Positions 20,118-35,811 of a stretch of DNA of 64,000 nt are shown piece by piece. The notes beneath the pieces were generated by a model. That model did not search any database. It was not told the DNA's origin and worked only from the letters and a program-made list of their open reading frames with translations. How positions within the stretch are numbered: the first letter of the stretch is position 1; each line of letters opens with the position of its first letter. This stretch comes from Nocardioides oleivorans (lineage in GTDB: Bacteria; Actinomycetota; Actinomycetes; Propionibacteriales; Nocardioidaceae). Location of the stretch: contig NZ_SDWT01000001.1 of the NCBI RefSeq assembly GCF_004137255.1, positions 620,001 through 684,000 of the forward strand, read 5' to 3'. The position numbers and the translations under genes are program-made.

Positions 20118-21632
20118 TCAGCGTGCGGTCACCTCGATGGTGTGCCACCCGGTGGCGCCGTCGGGGTCGGGCCGCACGACGACGCTGGTCTGGGTCTCGC
20201 CGTCCTTGCCGGTCGCGCGGACCCGGACCTCGTGGTCGCCCTCGTCCAGGTCGACGGTGAGCGCCCACTGCACCCAGGTGTCGTCGGACGGGACCCGGCC
20301 GAGCTCCGCGGGCTCCCACGCGCCGCCGTCGACCTGGACCTCGACCCGCGAGATGCCCGTGTGCTGGTGCCACGCGACGCCACCGATCGCCACCGGGCCG
20401 ACGGCCACGTCGTCGCCGGAGCGCGGGACGTCGATGCGCGAGGCGATCTTCACCGGCCCCTCGGCCGACCAGCCGCGCGTCGTCCAGTAGCCGACCGAGT
20501 CGGCGAACGTGCTGACCTCCATGTCGACCACCCACTTCGTGGCCGAGACGTAGCCGTAGAGCCCCGGCACCACCGTGCGCACGGGGAAGCCGTGCTCGAT
20601 GGGCAGCGGACGGCCGTTCATCGCCACCGCGAGCATCGCGTCGCGGTCGTCGGTGAGCGCCGCCAGCGGGGTCGCGCAGGTCCACCCGTCGTGGGAGGTC
20701 TGCAGCACGCAGTCGGCCTCCGCGCTCACGCCGAGGCCCTCGAGCAGGTCGGCGATGCGTACGCCGCTCCAGCGGGCGTTGCCGATCAGGTCGCCGCCCA
20801 CCTCGTTGCTGACGCAGTTGAGGGTGATCCACGACTCCGTCAGCCGGCGCGCGACGAGCTGGGAGTAGGTGAGCGTCACCTCCCGGTCGACCCGGCCGTG
20901 GATGCGCAGCGACCACGCGTCGGGCTCGATCGTGGGCACGGTGATCGAGGTGTCGATCCGGTAGAAGTCGTCGTTGGGGGTCTGCCACGGGCTGATCCCG
21001 GCGAGCCCGAGCGAGGTCGCCGGCGGGGCGGGTCGGCGGGTCACGCCGGGGATCCGGAGCAGCTGGCGGCTGGTCTCGACCTGGCGACGACCGGCGCCGA
21101 CCACGCGGCCGGCGACCGCGATGCCGAGCGAGGCGATGCCGATCGTGCCCGCGACGAGGAGGAACACGCGCCGCTCGCGCGACTCGAGGTCGGGACGCAG
21201 CACGCCGCGGTGCAGGGCGTCGGTCAGTGCCGCATGGACGGCGATCCAGGTGACCAGCCCGACCCCCACCGGGAGCACGTCGACCAGGCCCGCGCCCCGC
21301 TGCGCCAGGACCGACACCAGCCCGACCGCGGCGAGCGCGACCCACACCGGCAGGGGGCGCCACCAGGCCCGGCGAGCCAGCGACCCCGCCCACGCGAACG
21401 CGGCGAGCACGACGACCAGCACCCCGGTCACCAGCACCGGCTTGTCGAGGTGGCCGAGGACCTGGATCGCCCGCTCGGCGACCGATCCGGGGGTGAGCCG
21501 GATGACCAGCTCGGCGACCGCGACGACCGGCGACTCCCGGATCGTGAAGATCATCGCCGTCGCGTAGCTGGTCGCCAGGCCGGCCAGCCCAGCCAGGACG
21601 CCGGCCAGCCGCCAGTGCGCACGGGTGGTCAT
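20118..21632 (-). CDS. Membrane molybdopterin-dependent oxidoreductase, sulfite oxidase-like
   Basis: 504 residues. Four or five membrane segments occupy about residues 10-185, followed by a sulfite-oxidase-type molybdopterin domain: DFYRIDTSI near 230, [13 protein letters not shown] near 280 with the Cys expected to ligate molybdenum, [20 protein letters not shown] near 360, and a C-terminal dimerisation domain ([16 protein letters not shown] near 440). The electron donor is unknown; the fused membrane part suggests transfer to the quinone or cytochrome pool. ATG 21632 starts 34 bp from the divergent ispF. Confidence 0.9.
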
Positions 21633-21666
21633 CGGACCATTCTTGCGCGTCGGGCATGATGCCCGC

Positions 21667-22140
21667 GTGACCTCACCCCGGATCGGCATCGGCACGGACG
21701 TGCACCGCCTGGTCGCCGGGGTCCCGATGCACCTCGCCGGGCTCGCGTGGCCGAACGAGCCGGCCGGTCTCGAGGGCCACTCGGACGCCGACGTCGCCGC
21801 CCACGCCGCGTGCGACGCCCTCTTCTCCGCCGCCGGGCTGGGTGACCTCGGCTCGAACTTCGGCACGTCCGAGCCCCAGTGGGCCGGCGCGTCCGGGGCG
21901 ACGCTCCTGGCCGAGGCCGCCCGCCGCGTGCGCGGGGCCGGCTTCGAGATCGGCAACGTCGCCGTGCAGGTGATCGGCACCGTGCCGCGCCTCGGCCCCC
22001 GTCGCGCCGAGGCCGCCGAGGCGCTCTCCGCCGCGGTCGGCGCACCGGTCAGCATCTCCGCCACCACGACCGACGGCCTCGGCCTCACCGGTCGCGGCGA
22101 GGGCGTCGCCGCCATCGCCACCGCGCTCGTCACCGGCTGA
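21667..22140 (+). CDS. ispF: 2-C-methyl-D-erythritol 2,4-cyclodiphosphate synthase
   Basis: 157 residues, normal length. IspF makes the cyclic diphosphate of the MEP isoprenoid pathway. Metal ligands lie in GIGTDVHRL at the N-terminus and [13 protein letters not shown] near 38; the substrate loop [13 protein letters not shown] and the C-terminal [18 protein letters not shown] are intact. GTG 21667 is chosen from family length; CATGAT 6 nt upstream may serve as -10. In most actinobacteria ispF follows ispD; here a 12-kb polyol-type block separates it from ispD at 34051. Confidence 0.97.
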
Positions 22141-22246: not shown

Positions 22247-22295
22247 TTGCGCCCGGTGACAGCCGTCACCTACCATCGGGTCAAACGTGACGACC
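22247..22295 (+). promoter_or_regulatory. Promoter and putative operators of the E1/E2 operon
   Basis: TTGCGC (22247-22252) and TACCAT (22271-22276) are spaced by 18 nt. The spacer holds the dyad GGTGAC-AGCC-GTCACC (22255-22270), which contains the CRP/GlxR-type core GTGA-N6-TCAC. Just downstream TCAAACGTGACGACC (22281-22295) overlaps the expected start site and matches 13 of 15 bases of an element before the second SorC gene (29026-29040). A CACATATGTG palindrome follows at 22301-22310. Confidence 0.55.
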
Positions 22296-22325
22296 ACAAG
22301 CACATATGTGCATATAGGAGCTCGC

Positions 22326-23303
22326 ATGACTGCCACCCCCGGCACGGACCACGACACCGCCGCGCACGCCCTGCTGACCATGTGGACCATCCGTCGTTTC
22401 GAGGAGGCCGTCGACGACCTGTTCGCACGCGGCCTCATGCACGGGACGATGCACCTCTCCATCGGCCAGGAGGCCTCGGCCACCGGCGCGTGCCTGGCCC
22501 TGCGCACCGACGACGCCATCACCTCCACCCACCGGGGCCACGGCCACTGCATCGCCAAGGGCGCCGACCTCACCCGGATGATGGCCGAGCTGCTCGCCAA
22601 GGAGACCGGCTACTGCCGCGGTCGCGGCGGCTCCATGCACATCGCCGACACCGCGACCGGCAACCTCGGCGCCAACGGCATCGTCGCCGGCGGCATCCCG
22701 ATCGCCGCAGGTGCGGCGCTCGCCTTCCAGATGCGCGGCGAGGACCGCGTCGTGGCCTGCTTCTTCGGCGACGGCGCCGCCAACGAGGGCGCCTTCCACG
22801 AGGCGGTCAACCTGGCCGCGATCTGGAAGCTCCCGGTCGTCTTCATCTGCGAGAACAACAAGTACGGCATGTCCTTCTCCACCGAGAAGTCCTTCGCCAT
22901 CGAGAACATCTCCGAGCGCGGCGCGGCCTACGGCATCCCCGGCGTCACCGTCGACGGCAACGACCTCGACGCGGTGCACGACGCCGTCAGCACCGCCGTG
23001 GCCCGTGCCCGCGCCGGCGAGGGCCCCACGCTTGTCGAGAACCTGACCTACCGCTGGAAGGGCCACAGCAAGTCGGACAAGAACCTCTACCGCACCAAGG
23101 AGGAGATCGCCGACTGGCGTGCCAAGGACCCGATCCTCCGCTTCGAGGCGCAGGTGAAGGAGTCCGGCCTGCTGACCGACGAGGAGGTGCAGGCCATCCG
23201 CACCCAGGCCATGGAGGACATGCGCGAGGCCGTGCGCCAGGCCAACGCCGCACCCGACGCCGACCCGTCCGACCTCCTCGACGCGGTCTTCGCCCGCGCC
23301 TGA
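22326..23303 (+). CDS. TPP-dependent dehydrogenase E1 alpha (acetoin/pyruvate dehydrogenase type)
   Basis: 325 residues. The thiamine diphosphate motif runs from [13 protein letters not shown] to ICENNKYG (about 145-180), and [11 protein letters not shown] near 60 plus [14 protein letters not shown] near 97 are typical of AcoA/PdhA. With the next two genes it forms the E1 and E2 parts of a 2-oxo-acid or acetoin dehydrogenase complex, which transfers an acyl unit to CoA. Sequence alone does not separate acetoin from pyruvate specificity; the AcoA-like GRGGSMH and catabolic setting favour an acetoin-like substrate. ATG 22326 has GGAG at 22317-22320. No E3 gene is adjacent. Confidence 0.85.
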
Positions 23304-23331: not shown

Positions 23332-24345
23332 GTGAGCACCCTTCAGAACGAGACCGGCACCGACCGCGTCATCACCTACTCCGAGGCAGTCCGCGAGGCC
23401 ATCGGCCAGGCCATGGAGGCCGACGAGCGCGTCTTCATGCTCGGTGAGGACATCGGCATCTACGGCGGCGCCTTCGGCGTCAGCGGCGACCTCTACCACC
23501 GCTTCGGAGCCGACCGGATCCGCGACACCCCCATCTCCGAGCTCGGCATCGTCGGCGCGGCCGTCGGCGCGGCGCTCGCCGGGATGCGCCCCATCGTGGA
23601 GATCCAGTTCTCCGACTTCACCAACCAGGCGATGGACCAGATCGTCAACCAGGCCGCCAAGATCCACTACATGCTCGGCGGTGCGATGTCGGTGCCGATG
23701 GTGCTGCGCGCGCCTCTGGGCTCCGGCACCGGTGCGGCCGCCCAGCACTCGCAGAGCCTCGAGGCGTGGTTCGCCCACGTGCCCGGGCTCAAGGTCGTCA
23801 TGCCGGCGACCGCCGCTGACGCCAAGGGCCTGCTGCTCTCGGCGATCGACGACCCGAACCCGGTCATCGTGCTCGAGCACAAGCTGCTCTACCGCACCTC
23901 GGGCCCGGTCCCGGAGGAGGCCGTCCGCGTCCCCCTCGGCAAGAGTGCCGTGCACCGCCGCGGCGAGCACATCACGATCGTCGCCACGGGCGTCATGGTC
24001 TCCCGCTCGCTCGAGGCCGCCGAGATCCTGGCCGCCGACGGCATCGAGGTCTCGGTGATCGACCCCCGCACCCTCACCCCCCTCGACGACGCCCCGATCC
24101 ACGAGGACGTCTCGCGCACGGGCCGCGCGCTGCTCGTGCAGGAGGCACCCGGCCACGTCGGCTTCACCGCGGAGCTCTCCGCGCGGATCGCGGAGTCCCC
24201 GACGATCTACCGGCTGCTCGCGCCCGTGCGCCGGCTCAGCGGCCTCGACGCGCCGATCCCCTACGCCCCGCAGCTGGAGAAGGCGTCCGTCCCGCAGGTC
24301 GACAACATCGTCGAGGCTGCCAAGACGATGATGAAGGAGTCCTGA
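23332..24345 (+). CDS. TPP-dependent dehydrogenase E1 beta (acetoin/pyruvate dehydrogenase type)
   Basis: 337 residues of the transketolase pyrimidine-binding and C-terminal family. Typical segments are [20 protein letters not shown] at the N-terminus, [15 protein letters not shown] near 37, [20 protein letters not shown] near 66 and [20 protein letters not shown] near 138. It forms an alpha2beta2 heterotetramer with the product of the gene 28 bp upstream and binds TPP at the interface. GTG 23332 gives a standard N-terminus. Its TGA overlaps the ATG of the E2 gene. Confidence 0.87.
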
Positions 24346-25595
24346 TGGCCAGGCTCGCGATCCGGATGCCCAAGATGTCGATGACGATGACCGAGGGCGA
24401 GGTCAACGAGTGGATGGTGCGCGTCGGTGACGAGGTCGCCGAGGGCGACGTCGTCTGCGAGGTGATGACCGACAAGGTCGACATGGAGGTCGAGAGCACC
24501 GTCTCCGGCACCCTCGTCGAGATCGTCGTCGAGTCCGGCACCGTCGAGGTGGGCGAGCCCATCGGCTGGGTCGAGGGCGAGGACACCGGCGGTGGCTTCG
24601 GCGACCTGCTCGCCGGCCCTGCCCCGGAGCCGGACGCCGACGTGACCGCGACCGAGCCCGAGCCGGTCGCGGCGGCACCCGAGCCCGAGCCGGCGACCCC
24701 CGCCGCCACGGGCATCGTGCCGGCTGTGCCGCGCGCCCGGGCCCTGGCCCGCGACAACGGGGTCGACCTCGCCTCCGTGACGCCGACCGGCCCCGAGGGA
24801 CTGGTGCGCGTCGAGGACGTCGAGCAGGTCGTACGGCCGGCAGCCGCGCCGGCTGCCCCTGCCGCCGCACCCGCACCCCCCGCCCCTGCCGCCCCTGCGC
24901 CCGCTCCCGTCGCGCCTGCTCCCGTCGCAGCCGCACCGGCGGCGGCGAGCGCGCCGAGGCCGACCGACGACCGCCGCATCGCGGTCCGCCGGGCGGTCGC
25001 GCGCAAGATGGTGCCGACCGCGGCGATCCCGCAGTTCACCGTCTGGCGCCAGGTGCACCTCGACACCGCCAACGCGGTGCGCAACGGCGTCTCGTGGACG
25101 ACCGTCCTCCTGCGGGCGTACGCCGCCGCCCTCCGCGACGTGCCCGAGCTGCTGTCGCGCTGGGAGGACGACGCACCCACCGAGGCCGGCCCGCCGGCGA
25201 TCGCGCTCGCGGTCGCCACCGAGCGCGGGCTCATGGTGCCGACGTTCCTCGAGCCCGACGCGCGGCCGATCGCCGACGTCGACGCCGAGGTGCGCTCGGT
25301 GGTGGCGCAGGTCCAGAAGGGCAAGCTCGACCCGGCCTACATGGGCGTGGCCAACGGCTCGGTGTCCAACCTCGGCGGCCTGGGCGTGGACCAGTTCCAG
25401 GCGCTGCTCACGCCGCCGCAGGCGAGCGTGCTGTCGCTGGGCACGATCACCCAGCGGCCGGTCGCCGTGCCGGGCGGGCTGGGTGTCGCGCTCACCGTCA
25501 ACGCCGGCCTCACCGTCGACCACCGGGTGGCCGACGGGGCGCACGGCGCCCAGCTGCTCGAGGCGTTCTCGAGGCGGCTCTCCGGCGGCCTCTGA
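24345..25595 (+). CDS. Dihydrolipoamide acyltransferase E2
   Basis: 416 residues. One lipoyl domain (1-80) with the lipoylated Lys44 in MTDKVDME, an acidic linker, a peripheral-subunit-binding domain (VPRARALARDNGVDL, about 125-160), a long Ala/Pro linker (about 165-210), then the catalytic domain with His393 in VDHRVADGA. It accepts an acyl group from the E1 pair and passes it to CoA. The catalytic domain is slightly short compared with PdhC but keeps the HxxxDG motif. The start overlaps the E1 beta stop, so the three genes are one operon, ended by a hairpin at 25611. Confidence 0.9.
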   Translation: MARLAIRMPKMSMTMTEGEVNEWMVRVGDEVAEGDVVCEVMTDKVDMEVESTVSGTLVEIVVESGTVEVGEPIGWVEGEDTGGGFGDLLAGPAPEPDADVTATEPEPVAAAPEPEPATPAATGIVPAVPRARALARDNGVDLASVTPTGPEGLVRVEDVEQVVRPAAAPAAPAAAPAPPAPAAPAPAPVAPAPVAAAPAAASAPRPTDDRRIAVRRAVARKMVPTAAIPQFTVWRQVHLDTANAVRNGVSWTTVLLRAYAAALRDVPELLSRWEDDAPTEAGPPAIALAVATERGLMVPTFLEPDARPIADVDAEVRSVVAQVQKGKLDPAYMGVANGSVSNLGGLGVDQFQALLTPPQASVLSLGTITQRPVAVPGGLGVALTVNAGLTVDHRVADGAHGAQLLEAFSRRLSGGL

Positions 25596-25722: not shown

Positions 25723-26697
25723 ATGCCCGCCGCACGCGATCCCGCCATCCTGATGCGGGTCGCCGAGCTCTACTACCTCGAGGACAAGTCGCAGGCCGAG
25801 ATCGCCGAGCTGCTGTCCACGGGCCGCCCCAACGTCTCCCGCATGCTCAAGGAGGCCCAGCGGCAGGGCATCGTCGAGATCAAGGTGCACGACCCGAGCG
25901 GACGCGTCCGCGACCTCGAGCGCCGGCTCGCACAGGCCTTCGGGCTCAGCGAGGTCCGGGTCTCGGCGCGCAACCCGCACGCGGGCGAGACCGCCTCACG
26001 CGTCGGCGCCCTGGTCTCCGGGCTCCTGCTCGACCAGCTCGGGGAGTCCACGACGGTGGGCATCTCGTGGGGCCGCGCCCTCCACGCCTCGGTCGAGGCG
26101 ATGAGCACCGACCGCGACCACGACGTCACCGTCGTCCAGCTCCTCGGTGGCATGTCGGCCATCGGCAACGAGGTCAGCGGGCAGGAGCTCGCCCGCTCCC
26201 TCGCGGTGGCCCTGGGCGGCACCTACCGGCTGATGCACGCACCTGCCACCCTCGGCTCGCCCGAGGCCGCGCAGGCCCTGCGCGAGGAGCCCAGCGTCGC
26301 GCAGGCGCTGGAGGCCGCCCGCAGCTGCGACATCGCGCTGGTCGGCATCGGCACGCCCGCCTCGGGCTCCTCGGCCGCCGTCGTGGAGTCCCTGGCCCTC
26401 GACGCGGCCGACGCCCGTGCGTTCTGGGACCAGGAGCCCGTCGGAGACCTCGCCGGGCGCTACTTCACCGCGACCGGCGCCCCGGTCGACGGGCCCGTCG
26501 ACGACCGCGTCATCTCCGTCAGCCTGCACGACCTGGCCGCGATCCCGCTCGTCATCGGGGTGGCCCTGGGCCGCGACAAGACGGCAGCGGTGCACGGCGC
26601 GCTGCTCGGCCACCACGTCGACGCCCTGGTCTGCGACGAGAGCCTCGCCCGCAGCCTCCTCACCCACCAGTCCCCCAGCCAGGAAGGCACCACATGA
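25723..26697 (+). CDS. SorC/DeoR-family sugar-binding transcriptional regulator (first)
   Basis: 324 residues. An N-terminal helix-turn-helix (LEDKSQAEIAELLSTGRPNV, about 18-40, then SRMLKEAQRQGIVEI) is followed by the SorC/CggR sugar-phosphate-binding domain (VQLLGGMSAIGNEVSGQELA near 140, IALVGIGTPASGSS near 205). It probably senses a phosphorylated polyol or sugar made by the adjacent PTS. ATG 25723 has GGAGG at good spacing. Its TGA overlaps the gatB ATG. It is a clear paralogue of the regulator at 29060, sharing SQAEIA, NVSRML and EAQRQGIVEI. Confidence 0.92.
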   Translation: MPAARDPAILMRVAELYYLEDKSQAEIAELLSTGRPNVSRMLKEAQRQGIVEIKVHDPSGRVRDLERRLAQAFGLSEVRVSARNPHAGETASRVGALVSGLLLDQLGESTTVGISWGRALHASVEAMSTDRDHDVTVVQLLGGMSAIGNEVSGQELARSLAVALGGTYRLMHAPATLGSPEAAQALREEPSVAQALEAARSCDIALVGIGTPASGSSAAVVESLALDAADARAFWDQEPVGDLAGRYFTATGAPVDGPVDDRVISVSLHDLAAIPLVIGVALGRDKTAAVHGALLGHHVDALVCDESLARSLLTHQSPSQEGTT

Positions 26698-26969
26698 AGA
26701 AGATCCTCGTCATCTGCGGCACCGGAGTCGCCACGTCGACCATGGTCGCCAGCAGCATCAAGGACCACCTCGCCAGCCAGGGCATCGACGCCCAGATCAG
26801 CCAGGGCAAGGTCATGGACCTCGTCAACGGCACCCCCGACGTCGACCTCATCGTCGCCACCACCGCGGTCCCCGACACGGTGACCGTGCCGGTGGTCGCC
26901 GGCCTCGCGTTCCTCACCGGCATCGGCCAGGACGCCGCCCTGGCCGAGGTCGTCTCCCACCTGCAGTAG
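26694..26969 (+). CDS. gatB: PTS IIB component, galactitol type
   Basis: 91 residues, a complete stand-alone IIB domain. The N-terminus KKILVICGTGVATSTM holds the phosphorylated Cys8 in the P-loop characteristic of galactitol/ascorbate IIB proteins. It receives phosphate from IIA and passes it to the substrate during transport through IIC. The ATG overlaps the regulator stop (ATGA), showing coupling. The true sugar may differ from galactitol since no tagatose-phosphate enzymes are present. Confidence 0.93.
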   Translation: MKKILVICGTGVATSTMVASSIKDHLASQGIDAQISQGKVMDLVNGTPDVDLIVATTAVPDTVTVPVVAGLAFLTGIGQDAALAEVVSHLQ

Positions 26970-27020
26970 CCCCTCCCCGGCTCGGGCCACGTTCCCGTCC
27001 CCCGTCAGAACAGGCACCCC

Positions 27021-28412
27021 ATGGAAGCGTTCTCCTCCTACATCACCGACCTCGGCGCCGCCGTGGTCCTCCCCGTCCTGATCACGCTGTTCGCCATCGC
27101 GATCGGCCAGAAGCCCGGCCGCGCCCTGCGCTCGGGCATCCTGATCGGCGTCGGCTTCATCGGCGTCAACCTCGTCATCGGCCTCCTCGGCAGCTCGATC
27201 GGCCCCGCCGCCACCGAGCTCGCCACCCGGCTCAGCGTCAACCTCGACATCGTCGACGTCGGGTGGCCCTCGAGCGCGGCGATCGCGTTCGGCTCCAAGG
27301 TCGGCGCCGTCATCATCCCGTTCTGCCTCGCGCTCAACGTGGTGCTGCTGCTGACCGGCCTGACCCGCACCTTCGACATCGACCTGTGGAACTACTGGCA
27401 CTTCGCCCTCGGCGGCGCGCTCGTGGCCGTGGTCATGGACAGCTTCTGGTGGGGGCTGTTCGGCGCCGGGATCGCGATGATCATCACCCTCGCCCTGGCC
27501 GACCTCTCGGCACCGATGATCCAGAAGTACTTCGGGTTCCCCGACATCTCCTTCCCGCACATGACGTCGGCGCCCTACGCGCTGCTGGCGATCCCGCTCA
27601 ACTCGCTGATGGACAAGATCCCGGGCCTCAACAAGCTCGAGGCCGACCCGGCCTCGATCCAGAAGCGCTTCGGCCTGTTCGGCGAGACGATGTTCCTCGG
27701 CCTGGTGATCGGCCTCGTGATCGGCCTCGCCGGCTACGGGTTCGACGACCCGCGCGCCGACTCCATCGCCATCCTGACGCTCGGCATCACCGTCGCCGCG
27801 GTCATGGTGATCCTGCCGCGGATGGTCGCGATCCTCATGGAGGGCCTGGTCCCCGTCTCGGAGTCCGCCCGCACCTTCATGCAGAAGCGCTTCCCGGGCC
27901 GCCGCTACTACATCGGCCTCGACTCCGCGATCGCGGCCGGCCAGCCCGCCGTGGTGGCGACGTCGCTCATCCTGGTCCCGGTCACGCTCCTCGTCGCGAT
28001 CCTGCTCGCACCCCTGGGCAACCGCGTCCTCCCGCTGGTCGACCTCGCCACGATCCCGTTCATCGTGGCCGTGATGGTGCCGCTCTTCCGCGGCAACATC
28101 GTCCGCTCGGTCATCGGCGGGGCCATCGCGATCGGCGGCGGACTGTTCATCGCCACCGCGATCTCGGGCACCTTCACCTCGGTCGCGCTCGCCTCGGGCT
28201 TCGACAACGTCTCCGGGTCGAACCGGATCTCCTCGCTCGTCGACGGCGCCAACCCGCTGACCGGCCTGCTGGTCGGGATGGGCGAGCTCGGGCCGGTGGC
28301 CGCGATCGTGATGCTCGTGGTCGCCCTGGCGTTCGCCTTCGTCGTACGACGCATCGTGGCCCGCCGCGACGCCGCCGAGGCCCAGCAGGAGACCGCCGGG
28401 GCCGCCGCATGA
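27021..28412 (+). CDS. gatC: PTS IIC permease, galactitol type
   Basis: 463 residues with about 11-12 membrane segments, the usual size of GatC. Typical features are VLPVLITLFAIAIGQKPGRA at the N-terminus and the family segments VDVGWPSSAAIAFGSKVGA near 75 and YYIGLDSAIAAGQPAVVATS near 295. It is the membrane channel that carries the polyol while it is phosphorylated by the IIB. The ATG lies 51 bp after gatB; the stop overlaps the IIA gene start. Confidence 0.93.
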   Translation: MEAFSSYITDLGAAVVLPVLITLFAIAIGQKPGRALRSGILIGVGFIGVNLVIGLLGSSIGPAATELATRLSVNLDIVDVGWPSSAAIAFGSKVGAVIIPFCLALNVVLLLTGLTRTFDIDLWNYWHFALGGALVAVVMDSFWWGLFGAGIAMIITLALADLSAPMIQKYFGFPDISFPHMTSAPYALLAIPLNSLMDKIPGLNKLEADPASIQKRFGLFGETMFLGLVIGLVIGLAGYGFDDPRADSIAILTLGITVAAVMVILPRMVAILMEGLVPVSESARTFMQKRFPGRRYYIGLDSAIAAGQPAVVATSLILVPVTLLVAILLAPLGNRVLPLVDLATIPFIVAVMVPLFRGNIVRSVIGGAIAIGGGLFIATAISGTFTSVALASGFDNVSGSNRISSLVDGANPLTGLLVGMGELGPVAAIVMLVVALAFAFVVRRIVARRDAAEAQQETAGAAA

Positions 28413-28870
28413 CGGCAGCCTCGCTCGAGGCCGGGCTCTGCGTGCTCGACGCCGACGTCGCCGACGCCGGGGCCGCGATCCGGCTCCTGGCCGAGCGCGC
28501 CGTGGCCGAGGGCGTGGCGCACCCGTCGTACGTCGACGCGGTCCTGGCGCGCGAGGAGGAGTACCCCACCGGGCTCCCGCTCCCCGTGCCGGCGGCGATC
28601 CCGCACGTGGGCGCCGAGCACGTCGCGCGGCCCGCGCTGGGCGCGCTCGTGCCCCGCTCGCCACTCGTCTTCGGCGAGATGGGCAGCCGGGACCGCACGA
28701 TCGAGGCCCGTCTGGTGCTGATGCTCTTCGTCACCGACCCGCAGGCCCAGGTGCCGCTCCTCGGACGGGTGATCGGGCTCCTCCGGGCACCCGACCTCGA
28801 CGAGACGCTCCTGGCCGGGCTCACCGGCCCCGACGACCTCGCGGCACGGTTCAACGCGCTGTTGGCCTAG
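28409..28870 (+). CDS. gatA: PTS IIA component, fructose/mannitol-fold
   Basis: 153 residues. The conserved active-site histidine is His66 in PAAIPHVG, after the loop EEEYPTGLPLPV that is standard for this IIA family. It takes phosphate from HPr and gives it to the IIB. Its position after gatC completes a IIB-IIC-IIA galactitol-type PTS. No EI or HPr gene is in the window. The start overlaps the gatC stop (ATGA), and a strong hairpin 28 bp downstream closes the operon. Confidence 0.9.
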   Translation: MTAASLEAGLCVLDADVADAGAAIRLLAERAVAEGVAHPSYVDAVLAREEEYPTGLPLPVPAAIPHVGAEHVARPALGALVPRSPLVFGEMGSRDRTIEARLVLMLFVTDPQAQVPLLGRVIGLLRAPDLDETLLAGLTGPDDLAARFNALLA

Positions 28871-29040: not shown

Positions 29041-29059
29041 TATCTGCACGGAGGTGACG

Positions 29060-30043
29060 ATGCCAGCCCCACGCGACCCGGCCACGCTGCTGGCAGCAGC
29101 GCGCCTCTACTACCAGCAGGACCGGTCCCAGGCCGAGATCGCCGCCACGCTCGGCACCAGCCGCTCCAACGTCTCCCGGATGCTCACCGAGGCGCAGCGC
29201 CAGGGCATCGTCGAGATCCGCATCAACGACCCCGAGGGCCGCGTGCACGAGCTCGAGGACGAGCTCCGCACGACCTTCGGCCTCAGCGAGGTCCGCGTCG
29301 CCCACACCCGCAACGTCCCCGGCCTCCGGGTCGAGGACGCCGTCGGCACCCAGGCCGCGCGCCTCCTGCTCGACGAGCTCAAGGACTCGATGACCGTCGC
29401 GATGTCGTGGGGCCACGCCCTGCAGTCGATGGTCTACGCCACGACGGCCGACCACGAGCACCACCGGGTGACCCTGGTCCAGCTCGTCGGCGGCCTGTCG
29501 TCGATCAGCAACGAGATCAGCGGCCAGGAGCTCGTGCGCGAGCTCGCCGTGCGGCTCGGCGCGGAGTACCGCTTCCTCCACGCGCCGGCGACGCTGGAGA
29601 GCTCGACCTCCCGCGACGCGCTGCTCGCCGAGCCGTCGATCACCGACGCCCTCGACGACGCCAAGAGCGCCGACATCGCCTTCATCGGGGTCGGCACCCC
29701 GACCCACGGCTCGTCGTCGGCGATCCTCGACTCGCTGAGCCTCAGCCCTGCCGAGCGCGACGAGTTCTGGAGCCACGAGCCGGTCGGCGACGTCGCCGCC
29801 CGCTACTACAACGCCCAGGGCACCCCGATCCGCGGAGGCGTGGACGACCGCGTCCTCGGCATCAGCCTCGAGGACCTGCTCGAGATCCCCAACGTGGTCG
29901 GCGTCGCCTCGGGTCGCGCCAAGGCGCCCGGCGTCCTGGGCGCCCTCCGCGGCCGCATCATCGACTCCCTCGTCTGCGACGAGGCCCTCGCCCGCAGCGT
30001 GCTCAGCGCTGCCGGCTCCGGCTCCACCCACGGAGGCAACTGA
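29060..30043 (+). CDS. SorC/DeoR-family sugar-binding transcriptional regulator (second)
   Basis: 327 residues. Same architecture as the first SorC gene: helix-turn-helix about 18-42 (DRSQAEIAATLGTSRSNV), linker AQRQGIVEIRINDPEGRV, and a sugar-phosphate-binding domain with VQLVGGLSSISNEISGQEL near 142 and IAFIGVGTPTHGSSS near 208. It heads the glucitol-type PTS operon and probably responds to its phosphorylated substrate. ATG 29060 follows GGAGG; a GTG two codons earlier is less likely. The two SorC proteins and their PTS units probably arose by duplication of a regulator-PTS module type rather than of the PTS itself, because the transporters are unrelated. Confidence 0.92.
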   Translation: MPAPRDPATLLAAARLYYQQDRSQAEIAATLGTSRSNVSRMLTEAQRQGIVEIRINDPEGRVHELEDELRTTFGLSEVRVAHTRNVPGLRVEDAVGTQAARLLLDELKDSMTVAMSWGHALQSMVYATTADHEHHRVTLVQLVGGLSSISNEISGQELVRELAVRLGAEYRFLHAPATLESSTSRDALLAEPSITDALDDAKSADIAFIGVGTPTHGSSSAILDSLSLSPAERDEFWSHEPVGDVAARYYNAQGTPIRGGVDDRVLGISLEDLLEIPNVVGVASGRAKAPGVLGALRGRIIDSLVCDEALARSVLSAAGSGSTHGGN

Positions 30044-30044
30044 C

Positions 30045-30443
30045 GTGCACGCAGGATTCATCATCATCGCCGCCCTCGTGGCGGGCTGGCTGGTCCAGAT
30101 CTTCTTCACCTACCGCCAGTCCATGGCCTTCAACGACGACGTCCGCACCCTGCGCACGAAGGGCACCGTGAGCGTCGGCGTCGGCGGCAACCGCTACAAG
30201 GGCCGCCGCTCGTTCGTCGCCATCGCCATCGACCCCGACGGCATCGTCCGCGACGCGATCACCCTCGGCGGCCTCACCACCTTCGCGCGGTCCAAGCCCC
30301 TCCCGGGGCTCTTCGACCTCAAGGTCTCCGTCGTTCGCGGCGACCGCGCGATCCCCCACGTCTCGCCGTCCCAGCGCCTGGCCGCACGCCAGGCAGCGGA
30401 GCTCTACGGCGCAGCACGCACGTCGGTCCGCGCCGAGGTGTAG
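30045..30443 (+). CDS. gutM: GutM-like glucitol operon protein
   Basis: 132 residues. An N-terminal hydrophobic segment (about 4-22) is followed by the GutM/SrlM domain (RTKGTVSVGVGGNRYKGRR, then AIAIDPDGIVRDAITLGG). In Escherichia coli GutM is described as an activator of the glucitol operon; membrane-anchored homologues occur beside glucitol PTS genes in many Gram-positives, where the role is unproven. GTG 30045 lies 1 bp after the SorC stop, so it is translated from the same message. It is direct evidence that the following PTS is of the glucitol family. Confidence 0.88.
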   Translation: MHAGFIIIAALVAGWLVQIFFTYRQSMAFNDDVRTLRTKGTVSVGVGGNRYKGRRSFVAIAIDPDGIVRDAITLGGLTTFARSKPLPGLFDLKVSVVRGDRAIPHVSPSQRLAARQAAELYGAARTSVRAEV

Positions 30444-30451
30444 CAGCAACA

Positions 30452-30493
30452 CCACCGACCCGCCCCGGGGTGGAGCCCGGGGCCGGACGGTGG
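30452..30493 (+). other. Stable hairpin between gutM and srlA
   Basis: Nested arms CCACCG/CGGTGG and GCCCCGGG/CCCGGGGC enclose a GTGGAG loop. It sits inside the operon, 9 bp after gutM and 96 bp before srlA, and could attenuate transcription or protect mRNA ends. Confidence 0.55.
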
Positions 30494-30588
30494 GTCAGAC
30501 ATCGAGCGGATCACGTCCGCCGGTGAGAGAGATGCCGGGCAAGCATCACGACCAGGTTCACCACAGAGCCGACTCGACAGGAGCAATC

Positions 30589-31218
30589 ATGCCATTCACC
30601 CCCATGGCGCTGGCGGGCCTCCCGCTGGCCGCCGACACCCCCACGGTCGACCCGCCGACCGGTGTCTTCGGCGCCCTCGCCGACGCCGCCAACTGGTTCA
30701 TCGGCATCTTCAACGCCGGTGGCGAGACCTTCGTGGGCCTCGTGACGGGCATCATCCCGACGCTGATCGTGCTGCTGACCTTCGTCAACGCGCTGATCCG
30801 GATGATCGGCCCGGAGAAGATCGACAAGCTCGGCGAGGTCGCCGCGCGACCGGGGCTGCAGTACTACCCGGTCCGCTACCTGCTGCTGCCGGTGCTGTCG
30901 GTGTTCTTCCTGACCAACCCGATGGCGTACACGATGGGCCGCTTCCTCCCCGAGAAGTACAAGCCCGCCTTCTACGACTCCGCGGTGAGCTTCGTGCACC
31001 CGATCACCGGCATCTTCCCGCACGCCAACGCGGGTGAGCTGTTCGTCTACCTCGGCATCGCGGCCGGCATCACCACGCTCGGCCTCAACACCAGCGACCT
31101 GGCCGTGCGCTACCTGATCGTCGGCCTCGTCGTGATCTTCATCCGCGGCGTCCTCACCGAGATCATCACCACGCGCATGCTGGCCCGCCGCACGAGCAAC
31201 GCGGAGGTCTCGGCATGA
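30589..31218 (+). CDS. srlA: PTS glucitol-type IIC component
   Basis: 209 residues with four or five membrane segments. TFVGLVTGIIPTLIVLLTFV near 45, GLQYYPVRYLLLPVLSVFFL near 87 and FLPEKYKPAFYDSAVSF near 120 match the SrlA/GutA family, the first membrane half of the glucitol permease. ATG 30589 follows AGGAG at 30579-30583. The end overlaps the next ATG (ATGA). Confidence 0.92.
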   Translation: MPFTPMALAGLPLAADTPTVDPPTGVFGALADAANWFIGIFNAGGETFVGLVTGIIPTLIVLLTFVNALIRMIGPEKIDKLGEVAARPGLQYYPVRYLLLPVLSVFFLTNPMAYTMGRFLPEKYKPAFYDSAVSFVHPITGIFPHANAGELFVYLGIAAGITTLGLNTSDLAVRYLIVGLVVIFIRGVLTEIITTRMLARRTSNAEVSA

Positions 31219-31799
31219 GCACCACCACCCAGACCAAGTCCGGCGGCGGCATGGACGGGATCAACAAGGTCCTCGTCAAGATCGGCACCGCTGTCGGTGG
31301 TGTCGTCGGCACCCTCTACCAGGCCGGCCGCGACACGATCGACACCGTCATCCGCAACATCCTGCCCTTCATGGCCTTCATCGCGGTCCTGATCGGCATC
31401 ATCAACGAGACCGGTCTCGGCGACTGGCTCGCGCACCTGATCGAGCCGCTGGCCGGCAGCCTCGTGGGCCTGCTCGCGATCAGCGTCTTCTGCGCCCTGC
31501 CGGTGCTCTCGCCGGTGCTCGGCCCCGGTGCCGTCATCGCGCAGGTCGTCGGCGTGGTGCTCGGCACCCGGATCGGCGAGGGCGACATCCCCCCGCAGTA
31601 CGCCCTCCCGGCCCTGTTCGCCATCGACCCGCAGGTCGGTTGCGACTTCATCCCCGTGGGCCTGGCCCTCGGTGAGGCCGAGCCGGAGACCGTCGAGGTC
31701 GGCGTCCCCGCCGTCCTGATCTCCCGCCTGGTCACCGGACCGCTGTCGGTCGTCATCGCCTACTTCGCGAGCTTCGGCCTCTACAGCAGCAGCAGCTGA
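31215..31799 (+). CDS. srlE: PTS glucitol-type membrane half corresponding to the C-terminus of SrlE
   Basis: 194 residues. It aligns with only the C-terminal membrane part of Escherichia coli SrlE: FMAFIAVLIGIINETGLGDW near 54, LPVLSPVLGPGAVIAQVVG near 95 and QYALPALFAIDPQVGCDF near 130. The N-terminal IIB domain that precedes this part in SrlE is absent and is found instead as a separate downstream gene at 31891. Membrane segments number about four. The ATG overlaps the srlA stop, so the two membrane halves are made together. Confidence 0.88.
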   Translation: MSTTTQTKSGGGMDGINKVLVKIGTAVGGVVGTLYQAGRDTIDTVIRNILPFMAFIAVLIGIINETGLGDWLAHLIEPLAGSLVGLLAISVFCALPVLSPVLGPGAVIAQVVGVVLGTRIGEGDIPPQYALPALFAIDPQVGCDFIPVGLALGEAEPETVEVGVPAVLISRLVTGPLSVVIAYFASFGLYSSSS

Positions 31800-31806
31800 T
31801 CCACCC

Positions 31807-31836
31807 GGTCCGGCCGGCGACCCCGCCGGCCGGACC
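31807..31836 (+). terminator. Perfect 13-bp hairpin inside the PTS operon
   Basis: GGTCCGGCCGGCG and CGCCGGCCGGACC form a perfect stem with a 4-nt loop, 8 bp after the membrane-half gene and 54 bp before the IIB gene. No T-run follows. It could act as a partial terminator that lowers expression of the soluble PTS parts and the oxidoreductase, or as an RNA stabiliser. Confidence 0.6.
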
Positions 31837-31890
31837 ACCACCCCCTGATCACCCGACTCGACCCCCTCCCCCCAACCCCTAGGAGAAGTC

Positions 31891-32262
31891 ATGAGCGAGT
31901 ACAAGTCCGTCGTCGTCAGCAAGGGCCGCGGCGGCTGGGGCGGTCCCCTGACCGTCCTCCCGACCGACGACCGTCCCCTGGTGGCCTCGATCACCGGCGG
32001 AGGCATCCACCCCGTCGCCCAGCGCATCGCCGACCTCACCGGCGGCCAGGCCTTCGACGGCTTCAAGTCCTCGGCCCCCTTCGACAAGATCGCCGTGGCC
32101 GTCATCGACTGCGGCGGCACCGCCCGCGTCGGCGTCTACCCGATGAAGAAGGTGCTCACGGTCGACGTGCACGCCACCAGCCCGGCCGGCCCGCTCGCGC
32201 AGTTCATCACCGAGGAGCTCTTCGTCTCCGGCGTGAAGCCCGAGGACGTGCAGGAGACGTGA
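31891..32262 (+). CDS. PTS glucitol-type IIB domain as a separate protein
   Basis: 123 residues. It matches the N-terminal IIB domain of Escherichia coli SrlE: KGRGGWGGPL near 12, GQAFDGFKSSAPFD near 52, and AVAVIDCGGTARVGVYP with the phosphorylated Cys74. The C-terminus ends shortly after LAQFITEELFVSGVK, where SrlE would continue into the membrane part. So SrlE is split and its order reversed: membrane half first, IIB second. AGGAG at 31881-31885 is a good ribosome binding site, so this is a real gene and not a frameshift product. Its stop overlaps the IIA GTG. Confidence 0.92.
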   Translation: MSEYKSVVVSKGRGGWGGPLTVLPTDDRPLVASITGGGIHPVAQRIADLTGGQAFDGFKSSAPFDKIAVAVIDCGGTARVGVYPMKKVLTVDVHATSPAGPLAQFITEELFVSGVKPEDVQET

Positions 32263-32663
32263 GCACCGGCACCACCACGGTCTACGACACCACGGTGACC
32301 GCTGTGGGCGAGCAGGTCCCCGCGTTCCTCGAGCACGGGATCCTCATCTTCTTCGGCGACCACGCCCCCGCCGAGCTCCACGACATCTCGGTCCTCCACC
32401 GGGTCACCGTCTGCGACGACGGCCCCCGCCCCGGTGACCTCGTCCACCTCGGCGAGGAGACCCTCGAGGTCCTCGCGGTGGGAGACGTCGTACGCGACAA
32501 CCTCCTCAACCTGGGCCACATGGACATCAAGGCCGACGGCCTGACCGAGGCCAAGCTGCCCGGCGACGTCTGCGTCCGCAAGGGCCCCATCCCCCTCCTG
32601 GCCACGGGAGACGCGTTCCGCATCACCCGGCAGGAAAACACCCCCGAACAGGACCACTCATGA
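32259..32663 (+). CDS. srlB: PTS glucitol-type IIA component
   Basis: 134 residues, the usual size for SrlB. FGDHAPAELHDISVLH near 32 aligns with the Escherichia coli region ending FIH, making His47 the likely phosphorylated residue. LGHMDIKADGLTEAKLPGD near 85 is the conserved C-terminal half. It passes phosphate from HPr to the IIB protein encoded just upstream. GTG 32259 overlaps the IIB stop, and its own TGA overlaps the ATG of the oxidoreductase, so that enzyme is coupled to the transporter. Confidence 0.92.
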   Translation: MSTGTTTVYDTTVTAVGEQVPAFLEHGILIFFGDHAPAELHDISVLHRVTVCDDGPRPGDLVHLGEETLEVLAVGDVVRDNLLNLGHMDIKADGLTEAKLPGDVCVRKGPIPLLATGDAFRITRQENTPEQDHS

Positions 32664-33988
32664 GCTACCGAGACAGGCTCCAGCACCGGCTGGACGAGAC
32701 GGGTCGCCCCCTGCGGGTCGGCCTCGTCGGCGCCGGGCAGATGGGTCGCGGCTTCGCCGCCCAGCTGCTCCGGATGCCCGGCATAACGCTGTCCGCCGTG
32801 CTGGACGTCCAGCAGGAGCGCGCCGTCGAGGCGCTGACCCAGGCCGGCATCACCCCCACCGACGCGGCCGACACGGCCACCGCCGTCGCCGTCATCGAGG
32901 GCGGCGGCAGCGTCGCGCTCACCAGCGTCGACCGCCTCGCCGGGCTGCCGCTCGACGTCGTGGTCGAGGCCACCGGCGTCCCCGAGGTCGCGGTGTCCGT
33001 CGCCGTCCAGGCGCTCGCCGCCGGGATCAGCGTCGCCACCCTCACCGTCGAGGCCGACGTCACCGTCGGCCGCTACCTCGCCCAGCTCGCCGACGAGTCC
33101 GAGGCGGTCTACTCGGTCTGCCGCGGCGACGAGCCGGTCGAGACCAAGATCCTCGTCGACTACGCGCGCGACCTGAACTTCGAGGTCATCTGCGCCGGCA
33201 AGGGCAAGAACAACCCGCTCGACCCCTACGCCACCCCGGAGTCGCTCGCCGACCGCGCGGCCCAGAAGCAGATGAACCCGAAGATGCTCACGAGCTTCGT
33301 CGACGGCTCGAAGGCCATGATCGAGATGGCGTCGCTGGCCAACACCACCGGCCTGGGCGTCAGCAAGCGCGGCATGCACGGCCCGCCGTCGTCGGTCGCC
33401 ACCCTCCACGAGACCTTCGCGCTCGCGAAGGACGGCGGCATCATCGAGCAGGCCGGCGTCGTCGACTACTGCACCGGCGACGTCGCCCCCGGCGTCTTCG
33501 TCATCATCCGCACCGACGACCCCTACGTGCACCACGAGATGACCTACCTCCAGATGGGCGACGGGCCCTACTTCGCCCTCTACCGCCCCTACCACCTGGC
33601 CAGCATCGAGGCGCCGCTGACGGTCTACGAGATCGTCCTCGACAAGCGCCCGAGCCTGACCTCGGAGCACTGGACGGCCGAGGTCGGCGCGCAGGCCAAG
33701 CGCGCCCTCAAGGCCGGCGAGCGCATCGACGGCATCGGCGGCATGATGGTCCGCGGCCTGATCGACCCGGCCGAGGACTTCGCCCGCGACAACCTCGTGC
33801 CCCTCGGCGTGCTCGCGGGCGCGACGCTCAAGCACGACGTGCCGGTCGACCACACGCTGACCTACGACGACGTCGAGCTCGACGAGTCCTCGCTCATCGT
33901 GCGGATGCGCCGGATCCAGGAGTCGATGGAGAAGGACGGCAGCGACGTCCCGAACCTCGGCGAGCTGGCGGCCCTGCTCGCAGGGTGA
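32660..33988 (+). CDS. COG4091 oxidoreductase, DRL/DXR-II-like, with C-terminal SAF domain
   Basis: 442 residues. A Rossmann domain (GLVGAGQMGRGFAAQ, 21-35) is followed by a homoserine-dehydrogenase-like middle with CRGDEPVETKILVDYARD near 154 and FEVICAGKGKNNPLDPYATP near 175, and a SAF domain (VPVDHTLTYDDVEL near 395). Proteins of this layout were long called predicted homoserine dehydrogenases; the Brucella member DRL (about 440 aa) is a 1-deoxyxylulose 5-phosphate reductoisomerase unrelated to classical DXR. Its ATG overlaps the IIA stop, so it should act on the phosphate made by this PTS. Running DXR chemistry backwards on 2-C-methylerythritol 4-phosphate is one attractive option; another polyol phosphate is possible. 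Confidence 0.75.
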   Translation: MSYRDRLQHRLDETGRPLRVGLVGAGQMGRGFAAQLLRMPGITLSAVLDVQQERAVEALTQAGITPTDAADTATAVAVIEGGGSVALTSVDRLAGLPLDVVVEATGVPEVAVSVAVQALAAGISVATLTVEADVTVGRYLAQLADESEAVYSVCRGDEPVETKILVDYARDLNFEVICAGKGKNNPLDPYATPESLADRAAQKQMNPKMLTSFVDGSKAMIEMASLANTTGLGVSKRGMHGPPSSVATLHETFALAKDGGIIEQAGVVDYCTGDVAPGVFVIIRTDDPYVHHEMTYLQMGDGPYFALYRPYHLASIEAPLTVYEIVLDKRPSLTSEHWTAEVGAQAKRALKAGERIDGIGGMMVRGLIDPAEDFARDNLVPLGVLAGATLKHDVPVDHTLTYDDVELDESSLIVRMRRIQESMEKDGSDVPNLGELAALLAG

Positions 33989-34050: not shown

Positions 34051-34848
34051 GTGCCCCTCCCCCCGTCCGCCCGCGCCGCGGTCGTCATGCTCGCCGCGGG
34101 CGAGGGGCGCCGCAGTGGGCACCACACCAACAAGGTCCTGCTCCCGCTGGCCGGTCGCGGGGTCTTCACCTGGTCCATCGAGTCGGCCCGCCGGCTCGCG
34201 ACCGTGACCCACACCGTCCTGGTGATCCGCGAGGAGGACCGGGAGACCGTGATGGCCACCCTCGACCGTGAGGTGGGCCAGCCCGACGTGGCCGTCGTCG
34301 TCGGCGGCGACAGCAGGCACAGCTCGGAGTGGCAGGCCCTCCAGGCGCTGGCCCCGATGATCGAGGCCGGCGAGATCGACGTGGTGGTGATCCACGACGC
34401 GGCCCGCCCGCTGGCGGTGACGACGATGTTCGCCTCCGTCATCGAGGCCGCGCTCGAGCACGGCGGCGCGATCCCGGTGCGCGACCAGGGACACCTCACC
34501 GCGCTCGACGACGGCGGCGAGCAGCCCCCGGACCGCGTGGTGGCCGTCCAGACCCCGCAGGCCTTCCGGGCGGGTCCCCTGCTCGAGGCGTACCGCCTCG
34601 CCGACGCCGACGGCTTCGTCGGCACCGACACCGCGAGCTGCATGGAGCGCTACACCGACGTGCCGGTGCTCTGCGTCGACGGCGACGCCGGCAACATCAA
34701 GATCACGTTCCCCGAGGACCTCTTCCTCGCCGAGCGGCTGCTCGCCAAGGCAGACTGGGACCTGTCCGGACGGCAGCGCCACCGACGGGAGTCTGCGATG
34801 TCTCACCTGCGGGACCTGCTCCCCCACGGGGAGCGTGACCGCTCATGA
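34051..34848 (+). CDS. ispD: 2-C-methyl-D-erythritol 4-phosphate cytidylyltransferase
   Basis: 265 residues. The CTP-binding signature VVMLAAGEGRRSG with the lysine of NKVLLPLAG, VVIHDAARPLAV near 113, VVAVQTPQAFRAGPLLEAY near 165 and GNIKITFPEDLFLAERLL near 215 are all intact. It makes CDP-methylerythritol in the MEP pathway. A TarI-type CDP-ribitol enzyme is a weaker alternative. About 30 extra C-terminal residues are present. It lies 62 bp after the DRL-like gene but has its own leaderless promoter. In most actinobacteria ispD follows carD directly; here two degenerate homologues occupy that place. Confidence 0.88.
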   Translation: MPLPPSARAAVVMLAAGEGRRSGHHTNKVLLPLAGRGVFTWSIESARRLATVTHTVLVIREEDRETVMATLDREVGQPDVAVVVGGDSRHSSEWQALQALAPMIEAGEIDVVVIHDAARPLAVTTMFASVIEAALEHGGAIPVRDQGHLTALDDGGEQPPDRVVAVQTPQAFRAGPLLEAYRLADADGFVGTDTASCMERYTDVPVLCVDGDAGNIKITFPEDLFLAERLLAKADWDLSGRQRHRRESAMSHLRDLLPHGERDRS

Positions 34849-35153
34849 GCACGAGCGAGGCCGAGCTGCACTGCGAGGTGTGCCACCTGCTCACCGACCA
34901 CGAGCTGCACTACACCGGTCGCCTGCTCGACTCCGTGCGCTGCACCCGCTGCGGCACCCACGTCGAGCTGTCCTCGCGTGCGCTGATCCCGGCGTACGCC
35001 CTCGACCTCGAGCAGCGCCTGGTCAGCAAGCCGCGGCGGATGATGCGCCGGGTCGCGCGCGACCCGGTCGGCTACGTGCGCCAGCTGCCGCGGGCGGTGC
35101 TGCGCCAGCCCGGCAAGTTCCTCAGGGAGTTCCGGGGGCTCCTGCGTCGCTGA
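34845..35153 (+). CDS. Small zinc-ribbon-like protein
   Basis: 102 residues. Two cysteine pairs, C-x2-C at residues 10-13 (HCEVCH) and near 33-36 (RCTRCGTH), suggest a zinc ribbon; the C-terminal half is strongly basic (SKPRRMMRRVARDPVGYVR). It could bind nucleic acid or another protein. No specific function is recognised. The ATG overlaps the ispD stop (ATGA), so the two are coupled. The 3' end overlaps the convergent IspD-like gene by 32 bp. Confidence 0.7.
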   Translation: MSTSEAELHCEVCHLLTDHELHYTGRLLDSVRCTRCGTHVELSSRALIPAYALDLEQRLVSKPRRMMRRVARDPVGYVRQLPRAVLRQPGKFLREFRGLLRR

Positions 35154-35811
35154 CGGGCTCGCGGCGCACCCGCCGCGAGAGCTCGTCGACGCACTCCAGG
35201 AGGTTCACCGACGACGCGTCGTCGACGCGCCGGGCGAGCGAGGGGGCGCGCACCAGCCCGACCTCCCCGTGCGCCCGGAGCCAGGCGGCCAGGCGGGCGA
35301 AGTCGTCGATCGGCGGCCGGGCGTCGCGCTCGAGCGCCGCGGCCAGCACCGGCGCCGCGACCACTGCCGGCGACACCAGCGCGGCGAGCCCCTCGCGGTC
35401 GATCGTCCCGCCGATCCGGGCGTCCACGACCGTCTTCACCGTGTCGGTGACCGGACGGAAGGCAAGCGCGGACACCTCCGGCGTCGCGGCAGCACCGGTG
35501 CGGACCTCGCGCAGGAACTCCGCCGAGGCCAGCGGGCAGAGCGCGTCGTGCACCAGGAGGGCGGAGGTCGTGCCGGCAGCGCGCAGCTCGTCCCACCAGC
35601 CCGCGCCGGCCCGCACCTCGGCGGCGACGCCTGCGTGGCGCACCTCGCGCACCACCCGGTCGTGGTCGGCGGCGTCGACGGCCACCAGGAGCCGGTCCAC
35701 GCCCGACGCGGCCAGCGACCGCAGCGCGTGGAGGTAGAGGGGCGCACGGTGCAGCGAGGCGAACGGCAGTCCCCCGCGACCGGCCATCGCGAGCACCGCG
35801 GTGGCGCTCAC
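35122..35811 (-). CDS. Degenerate IspD-like protein A
   Basis: 229 residues. The fold of IspD is recognisable (VSALAFRPVTDTVKTVVDAR near 113, ASSVNLLECVDELSRRV near 200), but the catalytic loop is gone: LAMAGRGGLPFASLHRAPLY replaces the AAGxGxRxG...K motif, and HDALCPLA replaces HDAARP. CTP-dependent catalysis therefore seems unlikely. It lies beside carD where ispD sits in related genomes, so it may be the decayed ancestral copy or a repurposed protein; intact ispD is 1 kb away. Its GTG overlaps the stop of homologue B (GTGA). Confidence 0.65.
   Translation of the reverse strand: MSATAVLAMAGRGGLPFASLHRAPLYLHALRSLAASGVDRLLVAVDAADHDRVVREVRHAGVAAEVRAGAGWWDELRAAGTTSALLVHDALCPLASAEFLREVRTGAAATPEVSALAFRPVTDTVKTVVDARIGGTIDREGLAALVSPAVVAAPVLAAALERDARPPIDDFARLAAWLRAHGEVGLVRAPSLARRVDDASSVNLLECVDELSRRVRREPVSDAGAPGTP

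Follow-up and report, generated by a model that had tools for sequence, protein, structure and literature searches.

Why does a gene for an isoprenoid-type enzyme lie inside a phosphotransferase system (PTS) operon, in a genome that also has the classical gene for the same step? The question is raised by a 64,000-nucleotide stretch of Nocardioides oleivorans (contig NZ_SDWT01000001.1, positions 620,001 to 684,000 of the forward strand; hereafter the window), in which an open reading frame (ORF) of 442 amino acids with an ATG start encodes an oxidoreductase of the DRL (DXR-II) type. An earlier note on this DNA took the protein for a DRL-like enzyme whose gene overlaps a PTS IIA gene by 4 base pairs (bp) and lies 62 bp upstream of an intact ispD, and saw in it either a second source of 2-C-methyl-D-erythritol 4-phosphate (MEP) for isoprenoids or a catabolic relative. 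The family assignment is borne out by domains, fold and motif, and both the overlap, which is with the glucitol-PTS IIA gene, and the 62-bp gap are confirmed. Beyond what that note described, genes for ispF and for the E1-alpha, E1-beta and E2 components of a dehydrogenase complex lie upstream in the same direction, and the surrounding pathway is more important than the DRL gene itself. In this study, we propose that the operon probably encodes a catabolic pathway for 2-C-methyl-D-erythritol (ME). What makes this probable is the all-or-none linkage of PTS and E1 genes, their recurrence in other lineages, the pairing of E1 with DRL on plasmids, the branch of the E1 tree, the site between ispF and ispD, the replacement of dxr in relatives, the acid at the cofactor site, and biochemical precedents.

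In the proposed pathway, the glucitol-type PTS would take up ME and phosphorylate it to MEP, which DRL would oxidise and rearrange to 1-deoxy-D-xylulose 5-phosphate (DXP), an isoprenoid-type enzyme being run in reverse. E1, dependent on thiamine pyrophosphate (TPP), would split DXP at the C2-C3 bond, much as acetoin dehydrogenase does with acetoin. E2, together with an E3 whose gene presumably lies elsewhere, would pass the acetyl unit to CoA, the end products being acetyl-CoA, glyceraldehyde 3-phosphate and NADH. The scheme is built on gene content, conserved linkage, predicted fold, residues of the active site and cofactor site, and phylogeny, and from these we infer the substrate, direction, cofactor, specificity of E1, regulation and co-transcription. 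Precedents are available for its single steps. The sorbitol PTS is said, in the title of a 2004 study by Testa et al., to carry ME into Salmonella. A DRL encoded beside an ME-importing PTS would meet MEP because MEP is the product of DXR, and DXR chemistry is reversible. According to a passage of PMC3994034, ME taken up by a Salmonella dxr mutant is phosphorylated there to MEP. With its methyl ketone next to a hydroxymethine, DXP is acetoin-like. A passage of PMC3424233 describes purified pyruvate dehydrogenase making deoxyxylulose from pyruvate and glyceraldehyde, and aceE mutants that raise DXP in cells. The reverse of such a condensation, with capture by E2, would yield acetyl-CoA and glyceraldehyde 3-phosphate.

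The DRL protein has the NAD-binding, DRL_cat and SAF architecture of DXR-II (Pfam DRL_cat E=3.8e-65, NAD_binding_3 3.3e-05, SAF 4e-04), and among PDB entries its sequence is closest to Brucella DRL (3upl, E=2.2e-85). The AlphaFold2 model (pLDDT 92.3, pTM 0.91) superposes on 3upl and 3upy with a TM score of 0.92-0.93 and a root-mean-square deviation of 1.6-1.7 Å, and the next listed folds reach a query TM of at most 0.42. In Brucella numbering, K191, K193, N194, N195, D225, K228, E232, H250, R320, Y322 and H323 are retained, the KGKNN motif is kept, and both Lys191 and Lys193 required of a DXR-II are present. Thr229, which is described in a passage of PMC3847144 as absolutely conserved in DXR-II and as anchoring fosmidomycin, is replaced by Ala; the protein is thus, by predicted fold and motif, DXR-II-like and not a proven DXR-II. 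Among 85 aligned rows, 75 carry K-K-N-N at positions 191, 193, 194 and 195, and these 75 divide into 53 with Thr229 and 22 with Ala229, the latter being all 22 rows of the Nocardioides/Geodermatophilaceae group to which the window belongs. In a tree of 59 rows (24 close relatives and 2 short rows having been dropped from the 85), the window protein stands among Nocardioides, neighbouring Geodermatophilaceae and then freshwater actinobacteria. The PF21135-type homologues DLO1 and DLO2, families named in a passage of PMC3847144, carry DQP and K-LQD or (Y/W)(L/M) instead of DEP and KGKNN; DLO1 is separate with a support of 100, and DLO2 has a long branch whose placement on the backbone is weakly supported (73-74). 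On Deinococcus plasmids (L082, L091), DLO1 is clustered with rfbF, rfbC, SDR and lhgO, which hints at a role in sugar-nucleotide biosynthesis.

The isoprenoid genes of the host give the DRL gene its context. The genome (4.48 Mb, 9 contigs) has a single DRL_cat match and one copy of classical dxr, scoring 358.6 bits against a cut-off of 315.7; the classical DXR profile TIGR00243 matches at C1:3005403-3006464 and not at the window DRL. DRL as the sole MEP synthase of the genome was accordingly rejected. Of the signs that the earlier note named as refuting its reading, the normal dxr is present, but the protein is not placed far from Brucella DRL in the tree and keeps most active-site residues. 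PF01128 (IspD) has four matches in the genome, and since the window copy scores 131 bits against 41.6, 32.4 and 17.3 for the others, it is taken to be the sole intact ispD. ispF has a single match, so the genome's one ispF and one intact ispD are both within the window.

On the plus strand the order is ispF, E1-alpha, E1-beta, E2, a SorC regulator, galactitol-type PTS IIB-IIC-IIA, a second SorC regulator, GutM, GutA, GutE in two pieces, GutB, DRL and ispD. Adjacent genes overlap by 1-4 bp in several places, the widest gap being about 180 bp, ahead of the second regulator. On the strength of this layout the set is termed an operon, which may be split by the two regulators; a scan for promoters and terminators returned 2 terminator-like sites against 1.4 expected and no promoter-like site. 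Compared with glucitol/sorbitol PTS operons (srl/gut), the window shares GutM, GutA, GutE and GutB, but its GutE is split into two genes, and DRL with E1/E2 stands in place of sorbitol-6-phosphate dehydrogenase, which does not appear among the genes identified in the operon, no search aimed at it having been made. The split GutE (31215-32262), with the C-terminal piece first, is also found in most actinobacterial loci; the usual order, N-terminal piece first, is seen in Rubrobacter-like loci and L059. The galactitol-type PTS (26694-28870) with its own SorC regulator is a second PTS inside the operon, and a PTS of this type next to such E1/E2 genes is also found in Pseudoroseomonas, Allorhizobium, Rhizobium sp. 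SSA_523, L067 (Rubrobacteraceae) and C. difficile.

The linkage of DRL with transporter and dehydrogenase genes is conserved. A scan of genome contigs gave 53 DRL loci, 52 of them with a scorable DRL and 38 of these actinobacterial with at least 6 kb upstream. Among the 38, glucitol PTS and E1-beta are both present in the fetched stretch in 31, both absent in 7, and never present one without the other, counts whose weight is lessened because many loci come from close relatives and are not independent. Gene order in the cassette varies among lineages, so the linkage outlasts rearrangement. A Priestia plasmid carries glucitol PTS, E1-E2-E3 and DRL, and a plasmid of the alphaproteobacterium Pseudoroseomonas cervicalis carries the PTS enzyme EI, glucitol PTS, DRL, E1-E2 and galactitol PTS, the same functions as the window. 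In Sinorhizobium, Agrobacterium and S. meliloti, DRL-E1-alpha-E1-beta-E2-E3 is accompanied by genes for an ABC transporter and for a sugar kinase, which is PfkB in the two cases tested, so that transporter and PfkB kinase take the place of the PTS in several rhizobia. S. fredii NGR234 has the same arrangement as Sinorhizobium; an NGR234 protein is placed in the DXR-II clade in a passage of PMC3847144, and we infer that it is the DRL of this cassette. Among the 34 best plasmid matches to E1-alpha (at least 55% identity), DRL is nearby in 33 and within 200 bp in 32, a pairing read by eye in which many plasmids are close relatives. By eye, ORFs of the freshwater locus L033 read as HPr and EI, and one of L067 reads as EI. 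In the phage collection, DRL matches were limited to 4 Listeria records. A Ligilactobacillus salivarius megaplasmid (L076:12001-19575) combines DRL and glucitol PTS with fructose-6-phosphate aldolase (fsa) and transketolase, perhaps an alternative way of splitting the product.

The dehydrogenase and the cofactor site of DRL are also consistent with a dedicated catabolic route. In a tree of E1-alpha and E1-beta built from 26 chosen rows, a moderately supported branch (84/81) has on one side the E1 whose genes lie with DRL or galactitol PTS, and on the other acetoin dehydrogenases and other plasmid E1. The window shares E1-alpha, E1-beta, E2 and the proposed cleavage beside a methyl ketone with acetoin dehydrogenase (acoABC) operons, but its E1 does not group with theirs at that same support, and the butanediol dehydrogenase or acetoin reductase annotated next to aco genes in the references is not among the window's operon genes. 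At the cofactor site of DRL, 73 of the 74 DXR-II-type rows that have a residue right after the second Rossmann strand carry an acid there, Asp in 69 and Glu in 4 (excluding 7 DLO1 rows, 3 DLO2 rows and a single gapped row, with subtotals summed by hand). The window DRL has Asp, and Brucella DRL, with Ala followed by two Arg, is the sole exception. An acid at this position usually favours NAD(H). It suits an NAD-linked oxidation and a catabolic role, with Brucella putatively as the derived case.

The distribution of dxr shows what this clade of enzymes can do. In the freshwater order holding L045, 151 genomes were sampled, 120 of them with a dxr match (117 above the cut-off) and 27 with DRL; dxr is missing in 26 of 27 DRL-bearing genomes against 5 of 124 genomes lacking DRL (Fisher p=3.9e-23, with kinship ignored and genome completeness not given). 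All 7 loci lacking PTS and E1 belong to genomes that have no dxr match. DRL replaces dxr in this order, and the clade evidently handles DXP and MEP and can serve MEP synthesis, because these DRL-bearing genomes have no dxr. By contrast, dxr is present in 11 of 11 genomes tested of the Ala229 group (5 Nocardioides, 5 Klenkia or Modestobacter, 1 actinomycete), and other cassette-bearing genomes are mixed: Aquiluna, Rubrobacter-like and Micrococcales genomes mostly have dxr, and L047 and L067 are without a match. We read the branch of the window, in which dxr is kept, as having drifted or specialised. The interpretation given in the earlier note is partly supported. A second source of MEP is weakened by the normal dxr and by Ala229, yet related enzymes seem to fill the role of MEP synthase in genomes devoid of dxr; the conserved E1/E2 and transporter genes speak for the catabolic half. 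Brucella DRL itself is nested in an alphaproteobacterial clade with the E1/E2-linked proteins of Pseudoroseomonas, Allorhizobium, Agrobacterium and Sinorhizobium (SH-aLRT support of 92-100 at the forks concerned, in one quick tree). The simplest reading would be that a catabolic enzyme was recruited to isoprenoid synthesis at least twice.

The position of the cassette may be informative as well. Around ispD, 30 loci of the genus were inspected, the best matches among 59 genomes. DRL adjoins ispD in 4 of them, and in 17 of the other 26 ispF is in the fetched flank on the same strand. As ispF and ispD are neighbours in these 17 loci, the cassette seems to have entered between the two genes. Adjacency to ispD as a proof of function on its own was rejected for the same reason, since ispF is close to ispD there with no DRL beside ispD. 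The place of insertion may be meaningful, MEP being usable either way, or may be a chance event that has persisted.

Several observations weigh against ME catabolism. An ATP-dependent kinase is named in a passage of PMC3994034 as the enzyme that phosphorylates ME in Salmonella, and a passage of PMC3424233 reports that wild-type aceE gave no rise in DXP, the rise being confined to the mutants. Besides Ala229, the window protein differs from Brucella DRL at positions 121 (Ala for Gly), 174 (Ile for Glu), 178 (Tyr for Phe) and 351 (Thr for Val). Freshwater DRLs from genomes lacking both dxr and the cassette keep the Asp at the cofactor site too, so this residue does not fix the direction of the reaction. 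The two halves of the cassette also occur apart. Listeria and Ligilactobacillus salivarius have DRL with glucitol PTS and no E1/E2 annotated in the fetched stretch, and at the DRL/glucitol PTS locus of Enterococcus raffinosus no E1/E2 was detected by tblastn. Phyllobacterium DRLs lie beside a different ABC transporter with no E1 nearby, and the DRL of Pararhizobium A13 lies with a weak FGGY-kinase match, again with no E1 nearby. Conversely, in Rhizobium sp. SSA_523 and C. difficile the E1-E2 genes lie with a galactitol PTS and DRL is missing from the neighbourhood, which suggests that some substrates may bypass DRL to reach E1. The closest PDB matches of the window E1 are pyruvate dehydrogenases, and a clade of strictly DRL-linked E1 was rejected (p-AU 4.4e-11 and 5.2e-9, in a test that left out 16 near-duplicate loci, 6 own-genome or cut loci and rows shorter than 250 amino acids).

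In a first rival reading, the route is the same and the substrate another. The PTS would then import a different branched or deoxy polyol, such as 2-C-methyl-threitol, and the Ala229 DRL would rearrange its phosphate to another 1-deoxyketose phosphate for cleavage by E1/E2. The confinement of Ala229 to this one group of DXR-II-type rows, the second, galactitol-type PTS inside the operon, and the linkage of such a PTS to the same kind of E1 where DRL is missing are all in keeping with this; however, kin that bear Thr229 replace dxr, and the cassette sits between ispF and ispD, and we regard a different substrate as unlikely.

Alternatively, the succession of DRL and ispD, with the genome's sole ispF and sole intact ispD flanking the set, might mean that the adjoining ispD receives additional MEP for isoprenoids from PTS and DRL, E1/E2 being incidental or a source of acetyl-CoA. 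The substitution of DRL for dxr in the freshwater order lends this some force, but the host has its own dxr, the adjacency to ispD may just mark an insertion site given that ispF and ispD are neighbours in the 17 loci mentioned above, and rhizobial plasmids pair E1 with DRL with no ispD annotated in the fetched stretch; such a supply of MEP is in our view very unlikely. Equally little credence is given to DRL as an ordinary sugar-phosphate dehydrogenase that makes no skeletal rearrangement, with E1/E2 as a plain pyruvate dehydrogenase. The solved E1 structures nearest to the window's and the E1-E3 genes beside the galactitol PTS of C. difficile would be accommodated by it, but KGKNN, D225, K228, E232, H250, R320, Y322 and H323 are retained, and the model fits 3upl far better than any other listed fold. 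Catabolism of ME stays our preferred reading.

Methylerythritol comes from plants, and 2-methyltetrols form from isoprene. If ME catabolism is true, the pathway is a candidate biological sink for both, and E1/E2 genes, some of them now annotated as pyruvate dehydrogenase, would gain a new reaction, that of a DXP dehydrogenase. A DXR-II gene by itself would then not imply isoprenoid synthesis. Among the matches listed in the open-licence PMC literature, there was no report of methylerythritol catabolism. On a modest balance of the evidence, we are inclined to think that at least three bacterial phyla share an undescribed ME pathway, in which a PTS (or an ABC transporter with a kinase) would yield MEP, a reversed NAD-dependent DXR-II would yield DXP, and a dedicated DXP dehydrogenase complex would yield acetyl-CoA and glyceraldehyde 3-phosphate. 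The DXR-II of Brucella-like bacteria and of dxr-less freshwater actinobacteria would then have been recruited from the catabolic enzyme, explaining its patchy and seemingly redundant spread. A passage of PMC3847144 asks how DXR-II evolved in strains already having DXR-I, where a redundant activity should not be favoured. If true, a catabolic origin would answer this puzzle, the enzyme not having been redundant.

The genes of the operon are listed below.

Table. Genes of the putative ME operon in the window, with the evidence for each assignment
Feature	Position	Strand	Evidence
ispF	21625..22140	+	TIGR00151 150.5 bits, cut-off 116.45
E1-alpha, TPP-dependent 2-oxoacid/acetoin-type dehydrogenase, proposed to cleave DXP	22287..23303	+	TIGR03182 374.5 bits, below cut-off 393.85; PDB pyruvate dehydrogenase E1-alpha; trees
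E1-beta	23332..24345	+	NF006667 361.4 bits, cut-off 321
E2, lipoyl acyltransferase	24345..25595	+	best TIGR01349 207.5 bits, below cut-off 445
SorC-type regulator 1	25723..26697	+	56% identity to regulator 2 over 316 columns; start picked by likeness to regulator 2
PTS IIB (galactitol type)	26694..26969	+	PTS_IIB E=4.2e-13
PTS IIC (galactitol type)	27021..28412	+	EIIC-GAT E=9.2e-84
PTS IIA (galactitol/fructose type)	28412..28870	+	PTS_EIIA_2 E=1.4e-16; real start probably one codon upstream
SorC-type sugar-binding regulator 2	29054..30043	+	Sugar-bind E=1.3e-58
GutM	30045..30443	+	E=3.8e-17
Glucitol PTS IIC (GutA)	30490..31218	+	EII-GUT E=7.5e-76 on the part from 30550; start uncertain
Glucitol PTS GutE, C-terminal part, own gene	31215..31799	+	EIIBC-GUT_C E=3.6e-47
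Glucitol PTS GutE, N-terminal (IIB) part, own gene	31891..32262	+	EIIBC-GUT_N E=1.1e-51
Glucitol PTS IIA (GutB)	32259..32663	+	PTSIIA_gutA E=1.1e-29
DRL (DXR-II type) oxidoreductase, proposed MEP to DXP oxidoisomerase	32660..33988	+	domains, fold, alignment, tree
ispD	34051..34848	+	PF01128 E=7.5e-38; TIGR00453 156 bits, below cut-off 181.3

Downstream, a small ORF (34845-35153, plus strand) overlaps the end of ispD by 4 bp; by eye its Cys pairs are zinc ribbon-like, it has no Pfam match, and a counterpart sits after ispD in many relatives. Two further ORFs lie on the minus strand between ispD and carD. One of them (35808-36341) has no Pfam match and shows likeness to sequences near ispD in 28 of the 30 genus loci. 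The other (35122-35811) gives a weak IspD match (40.8 bits, profile positions 22-176) in which, by eye, the N-terminal nucleotide-binding motif is missing, and weak IspD-like ORFs on the minus strand are also present at L033 and L045.

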